DNA from: Actinomycetota bacterium | Lineage (GTDB): Bacteria; Actinomycetota; Thermoleophilia; Gaiellales; Gaiellaceae | Length of the DNA: 6,565 nucleotides | Reading direction: 5' to 3' | Assembly: GCA_016870235.1 (NCBI GenBank) | Contig: VGCB01000160.1 | Span: forward strand, 1-6,565 | Part shown: piece by piece, positions 1 to 6,395 of the stretch | How the letters are laid out: the number at the start of each line of letters is the position of its first letter | Position numbering within the stretch: position 1 is the first letter of the stretch | Notes under the pieces: generated by a model | Databases searched by the model: none | Told to the model about the DNA's origin: nothing | What the model saw: only the letters and a program-made list of their open reading frames with translations | Program-made: the position numbers and the translations under genes

Positions 1-174
1 CGGCCCCGCCGGCGGCATCGACCACGCATGGAGGTTCGTGGCGCAGATCCCGCAGCCGGCGACGCGGAGGAGCACGTCCCGCGGCCCGAGCTCCGGCAGC
101 TCCGTCTCGCCGACGACGAGCCGGCCCGGGGCCTCGAGCCTCGCCGCCCGCACGCGCCGAGGCCCGTCGCTCAC
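1..174 (-). CDS. Zinc-dependent medium-chain alcohol dehydrogenase, N-terminal part (cut by window edge)
   Basis: The first 58 residues of a medium-chain dehydrogenase/reductase are visible; the rest lies beyond position 1. Such enzymes oxidise alcohols or reduce aldehydes/ketones with NAD(P) in the cytoplasm. The sequence shows the typical N-terminal GroES-like strand pattern (PGRLVVGETELPELGPRDVL) followed by GCGICATNLH. C44 fits the catalytic zinc ligand, T46 and H49 the proton-relay positions. The usual GxCGTD is here CATN, so Gly and Asp are replaced by Ala and Asn, a mild deviation. The start is a GTG whose last bases overlap the TGA of the upstream SDR gene (GTGA), implying translational coupling and one transcript. 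Substrate and cofactor cannot be judged because the Rossmann domain is missing. Family assignment is fairly safe; function beyond that is not. Confidence 0.8.
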   Translation of the reverse strand, partial: MSDGPRRVRAARLEAPGRLVVGETELPELGPRDVLLRVAGCGICATNLHAWSMPPAGP

Positions 175-935
175 AGGTTCTGGCCGTAGACGAGCCAGCC
201 GCCGTCGACCGGGAGCGTGACGCCGTTGACGAACTCGGCCTCGTCGGAGACGAGGTAGGCGACGGCGCGCGCCACCTCGACCGGCCGGCCGAGGCGGCCG
301 GACGGGCTCCGCGCCTCGAGCGCTGCGCGGTCGACGGCGCCGCGCTCGATCAGGTCGGCGACGAGGTCGGTCTCGAAGTAGCCGGGCGCCACGGCGTTGA
401 CTCGGATCGCCGGCGCCCACTCGGCGGCAAGCACCTTCGTCATCGCGATCAACCCGGCTTTCGCTGCGACGTACGAGACGCGGCGCGGCGGCGTCGTGAT
501 CGCGGCCACCGACGCGATGTTGACGATCGCGCCCCGGCCCTCCGCGAGCATCGACCTCGCTGCGTGCTGGCAGAGGAGGAAGGGCCCCGTCAGGTTGAGG
601 TCGACGATCCGTTGCCAGTCGGCGAGCGCGAGCTCCTCGGCGGGGCCGGCGACGCTCGCGCCGGCGTTGTTGACGAGAACGTCGATCCGGCCGTGACGCT
701 CGAGCGTCCCCTCGATCAGGCGCGCGCAGCCCTCGGGCGTCGCCACGTCGGCCGCGATGCCGACGGCGCCGTGGCCGATCCCTGCGGCCGCGTTCGAGAC
801 CGCCTCCTCCGCCCGGGCGTTGACGACGACCCGGGCTCCCTCGGCCGCCAGGAGCTCGGCGATCGCGCGGCCGATCCCCCGGGTCGACCCGGTGACGACC
901 GCGACGCGGTCCTGCAGCCGGCCCACGTGTGGCAT
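171..935 (-). CDS. Short-chain dehydrogenase/reductase (FabG-like SDR)
   Basis: A complete classical SDR of 254 residues, the usual family length. It should catalyse NAD(P)-dependent alcohol/ketone interconversion in the cytoplasm. Visible motifs are the cofactor glycine motif TGSTRGIG (15-22), D63 of the adenine pocket, NNAG (89-92) and the catalytic tetrad N114, S142, Y155, K159 (YVAAK). The loop after beta-2 reads VNAR; R41 hints at NADP(H), a weak inference. The C-terminus (VNGVTLPVDGGW) is typical of FabG-like members, but a stand-alone catabolic dehydrogenase is more likely here than a fatty-acid FabG, because the partners are an alcohol dehydrogenase and a TetR gene rather than fab genes. 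The ATG at 935 is preceded by TAGAAGAG, which can serve as a weak ribosome site or, as TAGAAG six bases before the ATG, a -10 element. It overlaps the next gene by 4 bases. Substrate unknown. Confidence 0.93.
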   Translation of the reverse strand: MPHVGRLQDRVAVVTGSTRGIGRAIAELLAAEGARVVVNARAEEAVSNAAAGIGHGAVGIAADVATPEGCARLIEGTLERHGRIDVLVNNAGASVAGPAEELALADWQRIVDLNLTGPFLLCQHAARSMLAEGRGAIVNIASVAAITTPPRRVSYVAAKAGLIAMTKVLAAEWAPAIRVNAVAPGYFETDLVADLIERGAVDRAALEARSPSGRLGRPVEVARAVAYLVSDEAEFVNGVTLPVDGGWLVYGQNL

Positions 936-969
936 CGCGCTCTTCTACCAGAGCCGGCACGCCTTCTCC

Positions 970-994
970 GCCCGAGGCGTGCGTCGCCTCGGGC
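970..994. promoter_or_regulatory. Perfect 10+10 bp inverted repeat, candidate TetR operator
   Basis: The arms GCCCGAGGCG (970-979) and CGCCTCGGGC (985-994) are exact reverse complements separated by five bases. The element sits in the 71-base gap between the divergent SDR and TetR starts, 12 bases before the TetR ATG. Position and symmetry suit a dimeric repressor controlling its own gene and possibly the SDR/ADH pair. In RNA it would form a strong hairpin in the TetR leader, so attenuation or blocked translation is an alternative. Binding by this regulator is inferred from position alone. Confidence 0.55.
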
Positions 995-1006
995 AGACTC
1001 CGACGG

Positions 1007-1648
1007 ATGCAGCAGGAACGTGAGCAGCGGGCCGGCGCGCCGCGCGGACGGCGGCGCCGGCGGGACGAGGTCCTGCAGGTGGCCGCCGAGCTCTTCGCCG
1101 AGAAGGGCTTCGAGGGCACCTCGACGACCGACATCGCGGACGCGCTCGGGATCAAGGGCGGCAGCATCTACTACTACATCGAGTCGAAGGAGGCGCTTCT
1201 CTTCGAGCTGATGGAGGACATCTACGGCCTCCTCCTGGGGGCGCTACGGGAGATCCTCGAGAGCGACGCCGAGACGCTCGACAAGCTCGCGCGGCTCATC
1301 GACCTCCACGTGGTCGGGATGGCCGAGCACCGCCATCGCGGTGCCCTGATCCTCAACGAGACGCGCTCGCTGAGCGCCGAGCACCGCGCCGTCGTCGACC
1401 GGTACGCGACCGCGTACGAAGACGGCCTCGCCGGGGTGATCGCGCAGGGGCAGCGCGAAGGCGTGATCGACCCGGAGCTCGACGCGAAGCTCGTGACGAA
1501 GGCGCTGCTCGGCGCGGGCAACTGGATCAACCGCTGGTACCGCGAGGGCGGAACGTGGTCGCCCGGCGACCTCGCGAGCCAGTACGCCCGCATCTTCCTC
1601 GCAGGCCTGGCGCCCACCGAGCTTGACCGCCTCCGCCCGATCCGCTAA
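1007..1648 (+). CDS. TetR/AcrR-family transcriptional regulator (KstR2-like)
   Basis: A 213-residue DNA-binding repressor, normal for TetR proteins. The N-terminal arm is basic (RGRRRRRDE, 14-22). Residues about 22-66 form the TetR helix-turn-helix, with VAAELFAEKGFEGTSTTDIA and ALGIKGGSIYYYIESKEALL as the recognisable core. The C-terminal ligand domain contains GAGNWINRWYREGGTWSP (169-186), which resembles the NWxxRWY segment of KstR2-like regulators. KstR2 responds to an acyl-CoA thioester, so a CoA-thioester ligand is a reasonable guess here, not shown. I chose the ATG at 1007 because the upstream in-frame extension to 929 is low-complexity and would run through the SDR promoter and the inverted repeat. 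The Shine-Dalgarno is weak. It is divergent from the SDR/ADH pair and followed after 71 bases by the molybdoenzyme gene, so both are candidate targets along with itself. Confidence 0.92.
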   Translation: MQQEREQRAGAPRGRRRRRDEVLQVAAELFAEKGFEGTSTTDIADALGIKGGSIYYYIESKEALLFELMEDIYGLLLGALREILESDAETLDKLARLIDLHVVGMAEHRHRGALILNETRSLSAEHRAVVDRYATAYEDGLAGVIAQGQREGVIDPELDAKLVTKALLGAGNWINRWYREGGTWSPGDLASQYARIFLAGLAPTELDRLRPIR

Positions 1649-1719: not shown

Positions 1720-3933
1720 ATGAAGCTGATCTTCGGCGGGAACGTGAAGCGGACGTTCTGCACGCTGTGTCCCCAGCACTGCGGGATGCTGATCCAGGTC
1801 GAGGACGGCCGTCCGGTCCGCTTCGACGGCGACCGCGAGAACCCCGTCGCGAAGGGCAAGCTCTGCATCAAGGGCACCGCGTGCATCGAGCTGCACGAGC
1901 ACCCGGACCGCGTCAACCACCCGCTCAAGCGCGTCGGCCCGCGCGGGTCGAACCAGTGGGAGCGCATCTCGTGGGAGCAGGCGCTCGACGAGATCGCCGC
2001 CAGCCTCGCCTCGATTCGCGACCGCGAGGGCCCGGAGGCACTCGCTACCCTCGGCGGCACGCACAAGAGCCCGGGCGACTGGTCGAGCTGGCGCTTCGCG
2101 TGCCAGTTCGGGTCGCCGAACTTCGTCAGCCAGGGCCGCAACTGCGGCGTCGGCGAGTTCGTCACCGAGACGTCGGTCTACGGCTGGGACACGATCTACC
2201 AGGCGCCGCATCCCGGCGTCACCAACTGCGTCGTCATCTGGGGGTCGAACCCGGCCGAGTCCTCGCCGCCCTCGTGGGAGCGGCTGAAGGAGTGCCAGAA
2301 GCAAGGCGCGAAGCTGATCGTGATCGACCCGCGCGTGACGAAGACCGCGGCGCGCGCCGACCTGCACCTCCCCGTCCGGCCGAGGACCGACGGCGCGCTC
2401 GCCCTCGGCCTCGTCCACGTGCTGATCGCGGAGGAGCTCTACGACAAGGAGTTCGTCGAGAGGTGGTGCCTCGGCTTCGACCAGGTGCGGGAGATCGCGG
2501 CGGAGTGGACGCCCGAGCGCACCTGCGAGGTGACCGGCGTCGACGCCGAGCTGATCGTCGCCGCAGCGCGCATGTACGCGGAGAACCGCCCGGGGCGGAT
2601 CGCGTTCGGCGTCGCCCCGACGCAGCTCGGCGAGGGCGCGGCGCGCTCGGCGCTCCTCGGCCGGGCGATCTTGCGCGCGATCAGCGGCAACCTGGACGTG
2701 CCCGGCGGCGAGCCGCTCGGCAACCCGTACGACGAGTCGCAGTACGCCTGGTACGAGAACATCGGCTTCGACCGGCTCGTCGACCATCCGCTCCGCACGC
2801 GCGAGAGCGTCAACGCCGCCGACACGCCGCTCGTCTCGATCTCCGGCTACAAGGCGTTCCGCGAGGCGGCGGCGCCGATCTACCCGAAGGGCCATCCGGG
2901 CTCCGCCTACCTCCTGTTCGCGAGCCAGCCGGCGATCTACCGCGCCGTCGTCGAGCAGGATCCGTACCCGATCCGCGCGATCATCGTCCAGGGCGGCGAG
3001 CCGCTGCTGACGATGGGCGGCGCCAAGATGGCGCACAGGGCATTCACGAGCGACAACCTCGAGACGCTCGTCGTCATGGACTACTGGCTGACGCCGACGG
3101 CGCAGCTCGCCGACTACGTCCTCCCGGCCGCCGACTTCCTCGAGCGCGCTGACATCAGCTCCCACTGGGGGATCGGCAACTTCTTCGTCGTCGGGCAGAA
3201 GTCCGTCGAGCCGCTGCACGAGCGGCGGAACGACTACGAGCTGTGGGCGGGCCTCGGCCGTCGCCTGCTCGACCCCGCCGAGTGGCCGGAGACCCTCGAG
3301 GAGATGCTCGACCGCTTCCTCGCGCCCTCCGGGAAGACGTTCGAGGAGTGGGCCGACGGCCCGAAGAACCACCACTTCCCGCGGCCGCGCTGGAAGAAGT
3401 ACGAGGAGCAGGGCTTCGCGACGCCCTCGGGCAAGGTCGAGCTCGTGCCGAGCATGTTCGAGCGCTTCGGCGAGAACCCGTCGCCCGTCTACACCGGGCC
3501 TCCGTACTCGGCGCCCGACGCCGACGTCGACGAGTACCCGCTGCAGATGATCCCGGGCAGCCGCTTCCGCGAGCTCACCGCCTCGAACCTGCGGCAGAGC
3601 GCGCGCCTGAAGAAGATCCACCCAGAGCCGATCATGGACATCCACCCGGAGACGGCGGGACGGCTCGGGATCGGCGACGGCGACTGGGTCCTGATCGAGC
3701 GGCCCGAGGGCGCGATCCGCCAGAAGGCACGGCTCTTCGAGGGGATCCGCGTCGACACCGTGCACCCCGACGGGTACTGGTGGGAGCCGGGCACCCAGGC
3801 GGGCGAGCCGAGCCTGTCCGGTGTCTGGACGAGCAACGCGAACGCGATCACGCCGTCCGAGCCGGCCTTCTCGAGCTTCGCGGGCGATCAACCCCTGCGC
3901 GGCTCGCGCTGCCGGGTGCGGCTCGCTAGTTGA
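1720..3933 (+). CDS. Acetylene hydratase-like [4Fe-4S] molybdopterin (Mo/W) enzyme
   Basis: A 737-residue member of the DMSO-reductase superfamily (bis-MGD). C14, C17, C21 and C49 form the N-terminal [4Fe-4S] site (Cx2Cx3Cx27C), and K51 is the conserved Lys between cluster and pterin. Family blocks include RISWEQALDEIA (82-93), KLIVIDPR (198-205), LTPTAQLADYVLP (457-469), ATPSGKVEL (567-575) and a C-terminal dinucleotide-binding domain from about 605. Length and these blocks recall acetylene hydratase (about 730 residues). C142 in GRNCGVG matches its tungsten-ligand Cys141. The residue after the second cluster Cys, the essential Asp13 there, is Pro18 here, so acetylene hydration itself is doubtful. 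There is no Tat signal, and no ferredoxin-like or membrane subunit gene is adjacent, suggesting a soluble cytoplasmic enzyme, possibly non-redox. It may be controlled by the upstream TetR through the 1648-1669 repeat. Mo versus W and substrate are unknown. Confidence 0.93.
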   Translation: MKLIFGGNVKRTFCTLCPQHCGMLIQVEDGRPVRFDGDRENPVAKGKLCIKGTACIELHEHPDRVNHPLKRVGPRGSNQWERISWEQALDEIAASLASIRDREGPEALATLGGTHKSPGDWSSWRFACQFGSPNFVSQGRNCGVGEFVTETSVYGWDTIYQAPHPGVTNCVVIWGSNPAESSPPSWERLKECQKQGAKLIVIDPRVTKTAARADLHLPVRPRTDGALALGLVHVLIAEELYDKEFVERWCLGFDQVREIAAEWTPERTCEVTGVDAELIVAAARMYAENRPGRIAFGVAPTQLGEGAARSALLGRAILRAISGNLDVPGGEPLGNPYDESQYAWYENIGFDRLVDHPLRTRESVNAADTPLVSISGYKAFREAAAPIYPKGHPGSAYLLFASQPAIYRAVVEQDPYPIRAIIVQGGEPLLTMGGAKMAHRAFTSDNLETLVVMDYWLTPTAQLADYVLPAADFLERADISSHWGIGNFFVVGQKSVEPLHERRNDYELWAGLGRRLLDPAEWPETLEEMLDRFLAPSGKTFEEWADGPKNHHFPRPRWKKYEEQGFATPSGKVELVPSMFERFGENPSPVYTGPPYSAPDADVDEYPLQMIPGSRFRELTASNLRQSARLKKIHPEPIMDIHPETAGRLGIGDGDWVLIERPEGAIRQKARLFEGIRVDTVHPDGYWWEPGTQAGEPSLSGVWTSNANAITPSEPAFSSFAGDQPLRGSRCRVRLAS

Positions 3934-4124: not shown

Positions 4125-5555
4125 TCAGCCCAGCTTGCGCTTCTGCACCTTGCCCATCTCGTTCCGGGGCAGCTCGGTCAGGAAGTGGACGACGCGCGGT
4201 CGCTTGTGCGGGGTCAGCAGGCGGGCCACGTGATCGGCGAGCTCGCCCGCCTCGACCTCGACACCCTCGGCCGGCACGACCCACGCGACGATCCGCTCGC
4301 CGAGGTCGTCGTCCGGCTCCGCCGTCACCGCCGCCTCGGCCACCGCCGGATGCTCGAGCAGCGCGCCCTCGACCTCGCCGGCGCCGACCTTGTAGCCGCC
4401 GGTCTTGATCAGGTCGGTCGCCTTCCGGCCGACGATGCGGATGAACCCGTCCTCGGACCGCGTGGCGAGGTCGCCCGTGCGGAACCAGCCGTCTCGCATC
4501 GCCTCGGCCGTCGCGTCGGCCCGGTTCAGGTAGCCGAGGAAGACGTTCGGCCCGCGCACCTCGACCTCGCCGATCGTGGCGTCGTCCCGGGCGTCGAGCT
4601 CGATCCCGTCGTCGTCGACGAGCCGCAGCTCGACCCCCGTCAGCGGCGGCCCGACCGTGCCGGGGCGCGGGTCGCCGTCGACCCGGATCGAGCAGTTCAT
4701 CAGGGTCTCCGAGAGTCCGTAGCGCTCGACCACGCGCCGCCCGGTCGCCTGCGCCATGCGCTCGTGCTCGCGCGCCGGAAGCGCCGCCGACCCCGAGACG
4801 AGGAGCCGCGCACCGTGCAGGGCCGCGGCGACGGCCGGGTCTGTCTCCGCCGCCGTCGCGAGCCGGTTCACCATCGTCGGCACCGAGAAGAGCATCGTGC
4901 CGCCGTCCTCGAGCGCCGCCGCGATCGACTCCGGCGAGAAACGGCCGACGTGGTGGACGGCGCCTCCGCGCCGCAGCGGGCCGAGCGTCCCCAGCACCAG
5001 CCCGTGCGCGTGGAAGAGCGGCAGCGCGTGGACGACGACGTCGGCGTCGGTCCAGGCCCACGCGTCCGCGAGCGCGTCGAGGTTGCTCGCGATCGCGCGG
5101 ACCGGGAGCACCGCGCCCTTCGGCGGCCCGGTCGTGCCCGAGGTGTAGAGGACGATCGCCGGCGCCCCCTCGCCGGGTGCCGCCGGCAGGTCCGCAGTCG
5201 CGGTGACGCCGCCCGTGGCAACGTCGACGCGCGGCACCCGGTCGAGCGCGGGTGCCAGCGCCGCGCCCGGCCGCGCGAGCAGGGCACCGGGAGCGCTGTC
5301 CGAGACGACGTGCCCGAGCTCGAGCTCCCCGGCCTTCGGGTTGACCGGGACGACGGGGACGCCGGCGAGGAGCGCGCCGACGACCGCGACCGCGGTCTCC
5401 AGCTCCGGCTCCGCCCAGACGGCGACCCGCTCGAGACCCGCGACGGCAGCAGCGACAGCGAGCGCGGCCGCGCGCAGCTCGGCGTAGTCGAGCTCGCGTC
5501 CGTCGACCCGCACGGCCACCTTCGCGGGTGGATCGGCGAGCGCCGGGAAGAGCAT
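4125..5555 (-). CDS. matB: Malonyl-CoA synthetase (MatB), acyl-CoA synthetase family
   Basis: This 476-residue ANL-superfamily ligase should activate malonate (or methylmalonate) with ATP and CoA to the CoA thioester in the cytoplasm. Core motifs are the P-loop YTSGTTGPPKGA (137-148), LFHAHGL (180-186), RYGLSET (278-284), RTGDL (359-363), the hinge region GRKATDLIKTGGYKVG (376-391) and the C-terminal catalytic Lys K469 in NEMGKVQK. The short N-terminus, VNPKAGE, HAHGLVLG and the RVDGDPRPGTVG segment (291-302) match what I recall of the Streptomyces coelicolor MatB, and total length is close to that enzyme's (about 485). No malonate transporter or malonyl-CoA decarboxylase gene is visible. The ATG at 5555 has no Shine-Dalgarno; TAGGCT six bases upstream suggests a leaderless mRNA. 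It is divergent from the crotonase gene across 39 bases. A related short dicarboxylate as substrate cannot be excluded. Confidence 0.9.
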   Translation of the reverse strand: MLFPALADPPAKVAVRVDGRELDYAELRAAALAVAAAVAGLERVAVWAEPELETAVAVVGALLAGVPVVPVNPKAGELELGHVVSDSAPGALLARPGAALAPALDRVPRVDVATGGVTATADLPAAPGEGAPAIVLYTSGTTGPPKGAVLPVRAIASNLDALADAWAWTDADVVVHALPLFHAHGLVLGTLGPLRRGGAVHHVGRFSPESIAAALEDGGTMLFSVPTMVNRLATAAETDPAVAAALHGARLLVSGSAALPAREHERMAQATGRRVVERYGLSETLMNCSIRVDGDPRPGTVGPPLTGVELRLVDDDGIELDARDDATIGEVEVRGPNVFLGYLNRADATAEAMRDGWFRTGDLATRSEDGFIRIVGRKATDLIKTGGYKVGAGEVEGALLEHPAVAEAAVTAEPDDDLGERIVAWVVPAEGVEVEAGELADHVARLLTPHKRPRVVHFLTELPRNEMGKVQKRKLG

Positions 5556-5594: not shown

Positions 5595-6395
5595 ATGACC
5601 TCGGGACGCGACGACCGCATCCTCCTCGACGTCGCCGACGGGCTCGCCACCGTCACGCTGAACCGACCCGAGCGGCTGAACGCGATCGACGACGCGTGCT
5701 TCCGGATCCTCGCCGATCTCGCCGACGAGCTCGCGGCGCGCGACGACGTCCGGGCCGTCGTCCTCACCGGCGCGGGTCGGGCGTTCTGCGCGGGGGCCGA
5801 CCTCTCCGCGTTCGCGGCCGAGGTCGACTTCGACGACGCGCACATGGTGCGCGATCGGCTCCGCCGGGTTGGCGCCGTGGTCGAGAAGTGGGTCAACCTC
5901 GACAAGCCGACGCTCGCCGCCGTCAACGGGCTCGCCCTCGGCGGCGGCTGCAATCTCGCGCTCACGTGCGACCTGGTGCTGATGCGCGAGGACGCCACGA
6001 TCGGCCAGACCTACGTGCAGCGCGGACTCGTCATGGACATGGGCGGCACGTACTTCCTCCCGCGGCTCGTCGGCCGGGCGCTCGCGAACGAGATCGCCCT
6101 CTTCGGCGAGCCGCTGACGGCGGAGCACGCCGCCCGGATCGGGCTCGTCAACCGGAGCGTCCCGGTCGAGGACTGGGAGGCGACCGTCGGTGACTGGGGC
6201 CGGCGCCTCGCCCGAGGGGCGGGTCGGGCGCAGCGGCTGATCAAGACGGGCCTGCTCGCGTCGCCCCACGCCGACCTCCACACGATGCTCGAGTGGGAGG
6301 CGAACGCGATCGCGCTGATCTTCCAGACAGCGGACCTGCGCGAGGCGTTCGCCGCGTTCGCGGAGAAGCGCGACCCGGTGTTCCGCGGGCGCTGA
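5595..6395 (+). CDS. Crotonase-family enzyme (enoyl-CoA hydratase/isomerase), PaaG-like active site
   Basis: A 266-residue crotonase-fold protein of normal length acting on an acyl-CoA in the cytoplasm. Fold markers are VTLNRPERLNAID (20-32), the oxyanion-hole segments AFCAGADLSAF (63-73) and NGLALGGGCNLALTCD (111-126), and the C-terminal helix AFAAFAEKRDPVF (251-263). The two Glu residues that enoyl-CoA hydratases use (Glu144 and Glu164 of the rat enzyme) align with N120 and Y140, so ordinary hydration is unlikely. D148 in GLVMDMGGTYFLPRLVGR aligns with the Asp of GLxPDxGG in PaaG-type isomerases, making double-bond isomerisation or ring-opening chemistry more plausible. The open frame extends upstream to 4185 only as antisense of matB; the ATG at 5595 begins the recognisable domain. 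It is divergent from matB, and a shared acyl-CoA pathway is possible but not shown. Confidence 0.92.
   Translation: MTSGRDDRILLDVADGLATVTLNRPERLNAIDDACFRILADLADELAARDDVRAVVLTGAGRAFCAGADLSAFAAEVDFDDAHMVRDRLRRVGAVVEKWVNLDKPTLAAVNGLALGGGCNLALTCDLVLMREDATIGQTYVQRGLVMDMGGTYFLPRLVGRALANEIALFGEPLTAEHAARIGLVNRSVPVEDWEATVGDWGRRLARGAGRAQRLIKTGLLASPHADLHTMLEWEANAIALIFQTADLREAFAAFAEKRDPVFRGR

Follow-up and report, generated by a model that had tools for sequence, protein, structure and literature searches.

The 6,565-nucleotide stretch of DNA analysed here (the window) encodes a 737-aa enzyme of the MopB/DMSO reductase family that, judged by its sequence, belongs to an uncharacterised clade close to the acetylene hydratase (AH) subfamily but not part of it. 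We infer that the protein is not an acetylene hydratase. Because the AH residue Asp13 is absent from its family and its pocket is different, it probably carries out a different, as yet unassigned reaction on organic compounds. AH is the only known Mo or W enzyme without redox catalysis according to a 2025 review, the available text of which also describes little consensus on the AH mechanism and similar proteins that are uncharacterised (PMC12096430). A lineage near AH with the same fold and ligand and no Asp13 is a natural comparison for that question. Other clades of the DMSO reductase family are uncharacterised as well, which limits the surprise. The window has a GC content of 69-76% and contains the following features, in the order SDR, TetR gene, Mo enzyme gene, acyl-CoA synthetase and enoyl-CoA hydratase family gene.

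171 to 935, minus strand: short-chain dehydrogenase (SDR), from the domain/family scan
929 to 1648, plus strand: TetR-family regulator (TetR_N and PF17932); the likely start, read from the sequence, is the ATG at 1007
1648 to 1669, no strand: perfect palindrome AATTCTAA-N6-TTAGAATT, starting at the TetR stop codon and reaching into the gap between the TetR and Mo genes; likely operator
1720 to 3933, plus strand: bis-MGD (MopB/DMSO reductase family) enzyme, ATG start, 737 aa (the Mo gene), of the uncharacterised clade near AH
1759 to 1782, plus strand: C14-T-L-C17-P18-Q-H-C21, [4Fe-4S] motif with P18 at the AH Asp13 position, from alignment with AH
1864 to 1872, plus strand: C49-I50-K51, fourth cluster Cys and the Lys matching AH Lys48, from alignment with AH
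2062 to 2067, plus strand: H115-K116, where AH has X-Asn114, from alignment A1; candidate acid/base
2134 to 2151, plus strand: G139-R-N-C142-G-V144, clade signature with the metal-ligand Cys, from alignment with AH
4125 to 5555, minus strand: acyl-CoA synthetase (NF005858/PRK07787, over cut-off), from the family scan
5595 to 6395, plus strand: enoyl-CoA hydratase/isomerase family protein, from the domain/family scan

Identity of the enzyme

The open reading frame of the Mo gene has GC contents of 0.66/0.49/0.97 at the three codon positions and an AGGAG 5 nt before its ATG. The Molybdop_Fe4S4, Molybdopterin and Molydop_binding domains all score over their Pfam cut-offs. A homologue search gave E<=0.001 for 5859 of 7998 scored candidates, with one identical copy on another contig at the top and further matches from 89% downward. 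By sequence and by fold, the best solved relative is AH, as the preliminary description of this DNA had proposed, and the second best is the polysulfide/thiosulfate reductase PsrA/PhsA. The three domains, the number of matches and AH as best solved relative together argue that the residue pattern is not due to chance. The residues named in that description (C14, C17, P18, C21, C49, K51 and C142 in GRNCGVG) were all located as given, in the translation and in the alignment.

None of the 25 NCBIfam families listed, of 27, reached its cut-off; the curated cut-offs missed include those for formate dehydrogenase, PhsA, NapA, DmsA and TorA. The best scores were 272 bits for Fdh-alpha, where 666 are needed, and 267 for PhsA, where 694 are needed. 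No Tat-like motif was found in the protein, which is probably a cytosolic, single-polypeptide Mo- or W-bis-MGD/[4Fe-4S] enzyme, with cofactor, ligand and cluster assigned by homology. PsrA/PhsA likewise have Cys at the ligand column, but they are set apart from the window protein by this lack of a Tat-like motif, by a PhsA score far below cut-off, and by neighbouring genes, among which no PsrB- or PsrC-like gene was found.

Relatives and distribution

The close relatives include proteins of Streptomyces carpinensis (76% identity), Saccharomonospora and Prauserella (71-73%), Novosphingobium and Haliea (61-62%), a Chloroflexota MAG (61%) and Geobacter metallireducens (60%). The last four groups make the label "aerobic-actinobacterial branch", given to the lineage at first, too narrow. 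Close members occur seldom; in a family taken as Pseudonocardiaceae, 4 of 390 genomes contained one at E<=1e-200. With the window protein as query, the Actinomycetota genome search gave matches in 4 of 396 genomes at E<=1e-120 (best listed identity, 41%), and the order taken as Mycobacteriales gave 2 of 397 at E<=1e-100. With the homologue P0062 as query, matches were obtained in 4 of 297 genomes of the phylum of G002 at E<=1e-150 (identity up to 42%) and in 6 of 141 genomes of the order of G422 (up to 40%). A scan of genome contigs with patterns taken from the window protein alone returned 32 loci at 26-41% identity, mostly from Eggerthellaceae and kin. The best plasmid match, from Rhodococcus opacus, is 35% identical, and two viral-contig scans yielded relatives at no more than 37% and 23%; the one placed in the tree (L095) lies outside the clade. 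No characterised member of the clade was found in the literature searched, which included few subscription papers.

Four close homologues (P0051, P0060, P0062 and P0073), those from G. metallireducens and the Chloroflexota MAG among them, are 885-903 aa long, being extended at the C terminus; P0051 and P0060 have annotated DinB-like domains. In P0077, an 800-aa protein of a Georgfuchsia MAG, a CoA-transferase family III domain follows residue ~540, which is either a real fusion or an assembly chimera.

Phylogenetic placement

The tree was built by a quick search from 76 hand-chosen rows, with SH-aLRT support, and 53 of the rows were reused for topology and character tests. Named catechol dehydroxylases, metallopterin-dependent ergothioneine synthase (MES) and the CC-1065 enzyme were left out of the 76 rows, and the tree carries a long-branch warning, above all for EcPhsA with L041. 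The window protein and its close and mid relatives form a clade of 29 rows (SH-aLRT 100), excluded from the AH clade of 14 rows (SH-aLRT 100); both fall within a group of 52 rows (SH-aLRT 100). A single clade of AH and the window protein's lineage is allowed but not demanded by the 53-row data (AU p 0.557). FdhF, FdnG, NapA, DmsA, TorA and PhsA, several of them on long branches, all lie outside the clade, so the protein stands apart from the redox references placed in the tree, as first supposed. The clade is also separate from nine Eggerthellaceae/Coriobacteriaceae rows, presumed relatives of catechol dehydroxylases that were identified by taxon.

Cluster, ligand and the Asp13 position

Of 120 listed homologues of the window protein, 96 passed a length and motif filter, and 57 of these entered alignment A1 together with 19 of 120 listed AH homologues. 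A1 thus has 77 rows: the window protein, 35 close and 22 mid relatives (58 rows on its side) and 19 AH rows. The window protein pairs with AH of Pelobacter/Syntrophotalea acetylenica (PDB 2E7Z) at P18/Asp13, K51/Lys48, C142/Cys141, G143/Ile142 and R615/Arg606. The ligand Cys and the four cluster Cys are invariant at the aligned positions in all 77 rows, and the two proteins share family and fold.

They differ at the Asp13 position. Asp follows the second cluster Cys in 115 of 115 motif-bearing matches among the 120 listed for AH (the best 120 of 6400) and in none of the 99 among the 120 listed for the window protein (the best 120 of 5859); the CxxCxxxC motif was unreadable in the first 80 residues of the other 5 and 21 matches, respectively. 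The 99 have mainly Pro (63), Gly (15) or Trp (6) there, with other residues fewer. In A1, an acid at position 18 or 19 occurs in 19 of 19 AH rows and in 0 of 58 rows on the other side, which speaks against a neighbouring acid standing in for Asp13; a more distant acid may still fold into that place. The preliminary description was thus right that Pro18 leaves this position without an acid. It had also read the Asp as a catalytic residue missing from this protein, a loss that the tree makes the less simple account. Among the 76 tree rows, Asp occupies the column only in the 14 AH-clade rows, and on the 53-row tree one change is enough to explain it. As a single change that marks the AH clade, the Asp is most simply a gain in AH, and the lineage of the window protein would then never have had it. 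For the same reason a missing Asp13 is no sign of a degenerate AH. Available text on AH describes Asp13 as specific to its subfamily, with D13E tolerated and D13A inactive, and puts forward that Asp13 may itself undergo reduction and re-oxidation (PMC12096430).

The column elsewhere holds Ala in FdhF, Gly in NapA, Ser in PhsA and Leu, Ile or Val in the nine Eggerthellaceae/Coriobacteriaceae rows. In other nearby uncharacterised clades, 12 of 13 rows (L001-L006, L063, L067, L076, L090, L094 and L095) have His at the Asp13 column and Arg at the Asn114 column, possibly another acid/base pair, to go by the alignment.

Pocket residues

An altered pocket had been suggested, and A1 agrees: the window protein has Q19, K116, S182, F296 and G143 where AH has Ile14, Asn114, Trp179, Trp293 and Ile142. 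Trp179, Trp293 and Asn114 are invariant in the 19 AH rows, and all three are absent from the window protein. Some mid relatives are AH-like, with Trp at 293 in 8 of 22 rows and at 179 in 2 of 22. Two AH residues are kept: Lys48 as K51 (Lys in 35 of 35 close and 13 of 22 mid rows) and Arg606 as R615.

The earlier contrast of Gly with Ile after the ligand Cys holds for the pair, since G143 aligns on Ile142, but Ile142 is itself variable among the 19 AH rows (A 9, M 7, I 2, L 1). Gly after the ligand Cys in 56 of 58 rows is the firmer observation, and Asn before it is found in all 58 rows versus 0 of 19 AH rows. A basic residue (His, Lys or Arg) occupies 115 or 116 in 57 of the 58 rows versus 1 of the 19. 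Three acids rare in AH rows are conserved on the window protein's side, D505 (58 rows), D38 (55) and E150 (53), and by this conservation any of them could serve as acid/base instead of 115/116.

Gene neighbourhood and electron partners

Gene context is known from five loci, the window and four others, the latter all of one family taken as Pseudonocardiaceae. In all four of these loci the Mo gene is accompanied by the same ten genes: SDR, DctP, DctM, DctQ, alpha/beta-hydrolase, MoaA, VOC, SnoaL, TetR and one for a protein of 146 aa. The end of the Mo gene and the beginning of the SDR gene share 1-4 bp there. MoaA of locus L109 exceeds its equivalog cut-off, which fits a Mo/W cofactor. The window compares with the four loci at 71-72% for the Mo gene, 35% for the TetR (same C-terminal family) and 31% for the SDR. 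This conserved cluster, which includes a transporter, a regulator and MoaA, is a starting point for finding the substrate genetically. The sole relative of the window's acyl-CoA synthetase listed with an organism (Solirubrobacteraceae) is 69% identical.

Near two Mo genes at 37-38% identity to the window's (L081 and L082) lie genes for an acyl-CoA ligase, old-yellow-enzyme family proteins, an acyl-CoA dehydrogenase, an enoyl-CoA hydratase, an amidohydrolase and a Fer4-type protein; one of the two clusters also has a UroD-like gene.

Electron partners were sought with two patterns, Fer4-type and plant-ferredoxin-like. The window, L080, L108 and L109 gave no Fer4-type match. In L079 one falls within a 964-aa frame, ~2 kb away from the Mo gene, and among the more distant relatives two have a neighbour of Fer4 type. 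Plant-ferredoxin-like matches in L108 and L109, within frames 92 and 150 aa long, are taken as chance. No gene for an Fe-S or membrane partner was identified next to the window's Mo gene or conserved in the four loci, where some upstream neighbours are unassigned; a partner may lie further away. AH differs: in the available text of PMC7858054, every putative or reference AH gene covered except one has Fe-S genes almost next to it, whereas the window protein's relatives have the SDR/TRAP/MoaA cluster and no Fe-S gene is seen beside its own gene.

Palindromes

The palindrome at 1648 to 1669 is the most A+T-rich 22-mer of the window (16/22), tied only with its own overlaps. Its pattern, chosen after sighting, had no match in 200 shuffles. 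It is a likely TetR operator, through which the TetR protein would regulate the Mo gene. The six top-ranked palindromes listed for the stretches before each of the four relatives' Mo genes do not include it; L108 and L109 share another upstream palindrome. A GC-rich perfect palindrome (970 to 994, 10-bp arms, 5-bp loop) lies between the divergent SDR and TetR genes of the window.

Proposed reaction and alternatives

The best overall explanation, to which we give an even chance, is an enzyme other than AH with water- or hydroxyl-type chemistry, a base at 115/116, coupling to an SDR and regulation by TetR. The substrate would be a larger and more polar organic compound than acetylene. A metal-bound water, hydroxide or oxo group would be added to it or taken from it, with the basic residue at 115/116, rather than Asp, acting as acid/base, and the product would pass to the neighbouring SDR. 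Two things incline us to a redox-neutral water or hydroxyl step: no electron partner is conserved next to the gene, and an SDR is coupled to it. Several points weigh against that reading. Redox catalysis is, to our knowledge, what almost every characterised member of the DMSO reductase family performs, and the invariant cluster Cys fit electron transfer. The context comes from just five loci, four of them of one family, and the window's SDR is only 31% like theirs. A redox-neutral overall step, which we place just under even, is slightly favoured over a ferredoxin-fed redox step, which we place somewhat lower. Extended to the whole Asn-Cys-Gly clade, as an unrecognised subfamily for redox-neutral hydration, dehydration or hydroxyl transfer on catabolic substrates in aerobes and anaerobes, with His/Lys at 115/116 doing the job of Asp13, the proposal becomes doubtful. 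If true, it would mean a second, separately built hydratase-like chemistry in the DMSO reductase family.

The strongest alternative, a real possibility with the balance somewhat against it, is a redox enzyme acting on an aromatic or otherwise cyclic compound, either by reductive dehydroxylation or by oxidative hydroxylation, and fed by a general ferredoxin in the manner of catechol dehydroxylases. The latter (Dadh, Cldh and others) are also bis-MGD enzymes. In the available text of PMC7028382 they rank as the nearest relatives of AH, and homologues are given for Streptomyces, Geobacter and others; they thus show that enzymes called closest to AH can be reductases. Their nine presumed relatives in the tree have the Cys ligand and, like the window protein, no acid at position 13, and the invariance of the cluster Cys also speaks for a redox reaction. 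On the tree, however, the window protein's clade splits from these nine rows, which have Tyr or Leu after the ligand rather than Gly. Moreover, the catechol dehydroxylases reported in the available text of PMC7028382 and PMC12771579 come with genes for 4Fe-4S and/or membrane partners, and the five loci show no such gene conserved next to the Mo gene.

We consider unlikely a hydroxyl-transferring or ring-hydroxylating enzyme that acts on a polyphenol before ring reduction by the SDR. The model is the pyrogallol transhydroxylase pathway, in which hydroxyl transfer on a polyphenol precedes ring reduction. It would be in keeping with the SDR gene that immediately follows the Mo gene in four loci and with the VOC, SnoaL and alpha/beta-hydrolase genes of the cluster. 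Against it, no gene for a small Fe-S subunit lies beside the Mo gene, and transhydroxylase and resorcinol hydroxylase have a Ser ligand in the available description (PMC10100899), whereas the clade has Cys. A further candidate, PadB, was set aside, as no genes for its subunits lie beside the window's Mo gene.

An acetylene hydratase of aerobic actinobacteria, with another residue replacing Asp13, is very unlikely. AH is the nearest solved structure, and R. opacus, an aerobic actinobacterium and acetylenotroph, is cited with a Mo-dependent, uncharacterised AH (excerpts of PMC7858054). The window protein, however, lacks Asp13, Trp179, Trp293 and Asn114, and D13A inactivates AH. The R. opacus DSM 44186 plasmid protein (L087:11995-14355; NZ_CP082159.1 636946-639306), at the base of the AH clade (SH-aLRT 100), keeps the Asp (CKSCDIEC), Trp179 and Trp293. 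The aerobic actinobacterial AH candidate thus has the AH signature, and the window protein is without it.

Least probable of all is a sulfur-inserting enzyme like MES, whose N-terminal module is AH-related with a Cys ligand but which, as described in part in PMC9516567, has a fused C-terminal cysteine desulfurase, none being present in the window protein or the scanned window genes; MES is set apart here by this description of domains, not by sequence.

The R. opacus homologue

The L087 protein is, on its sequence, a candidate for the Mo-dependent AH of aerobic R. opacus. Strain DSM 44186 is presumably one of the 1997 acetylene isolates. Downstream of the gene lie a ferritin-like gene, then the ferredoxin gene FdxA (two genes downstream) and, further on, MoeZ.
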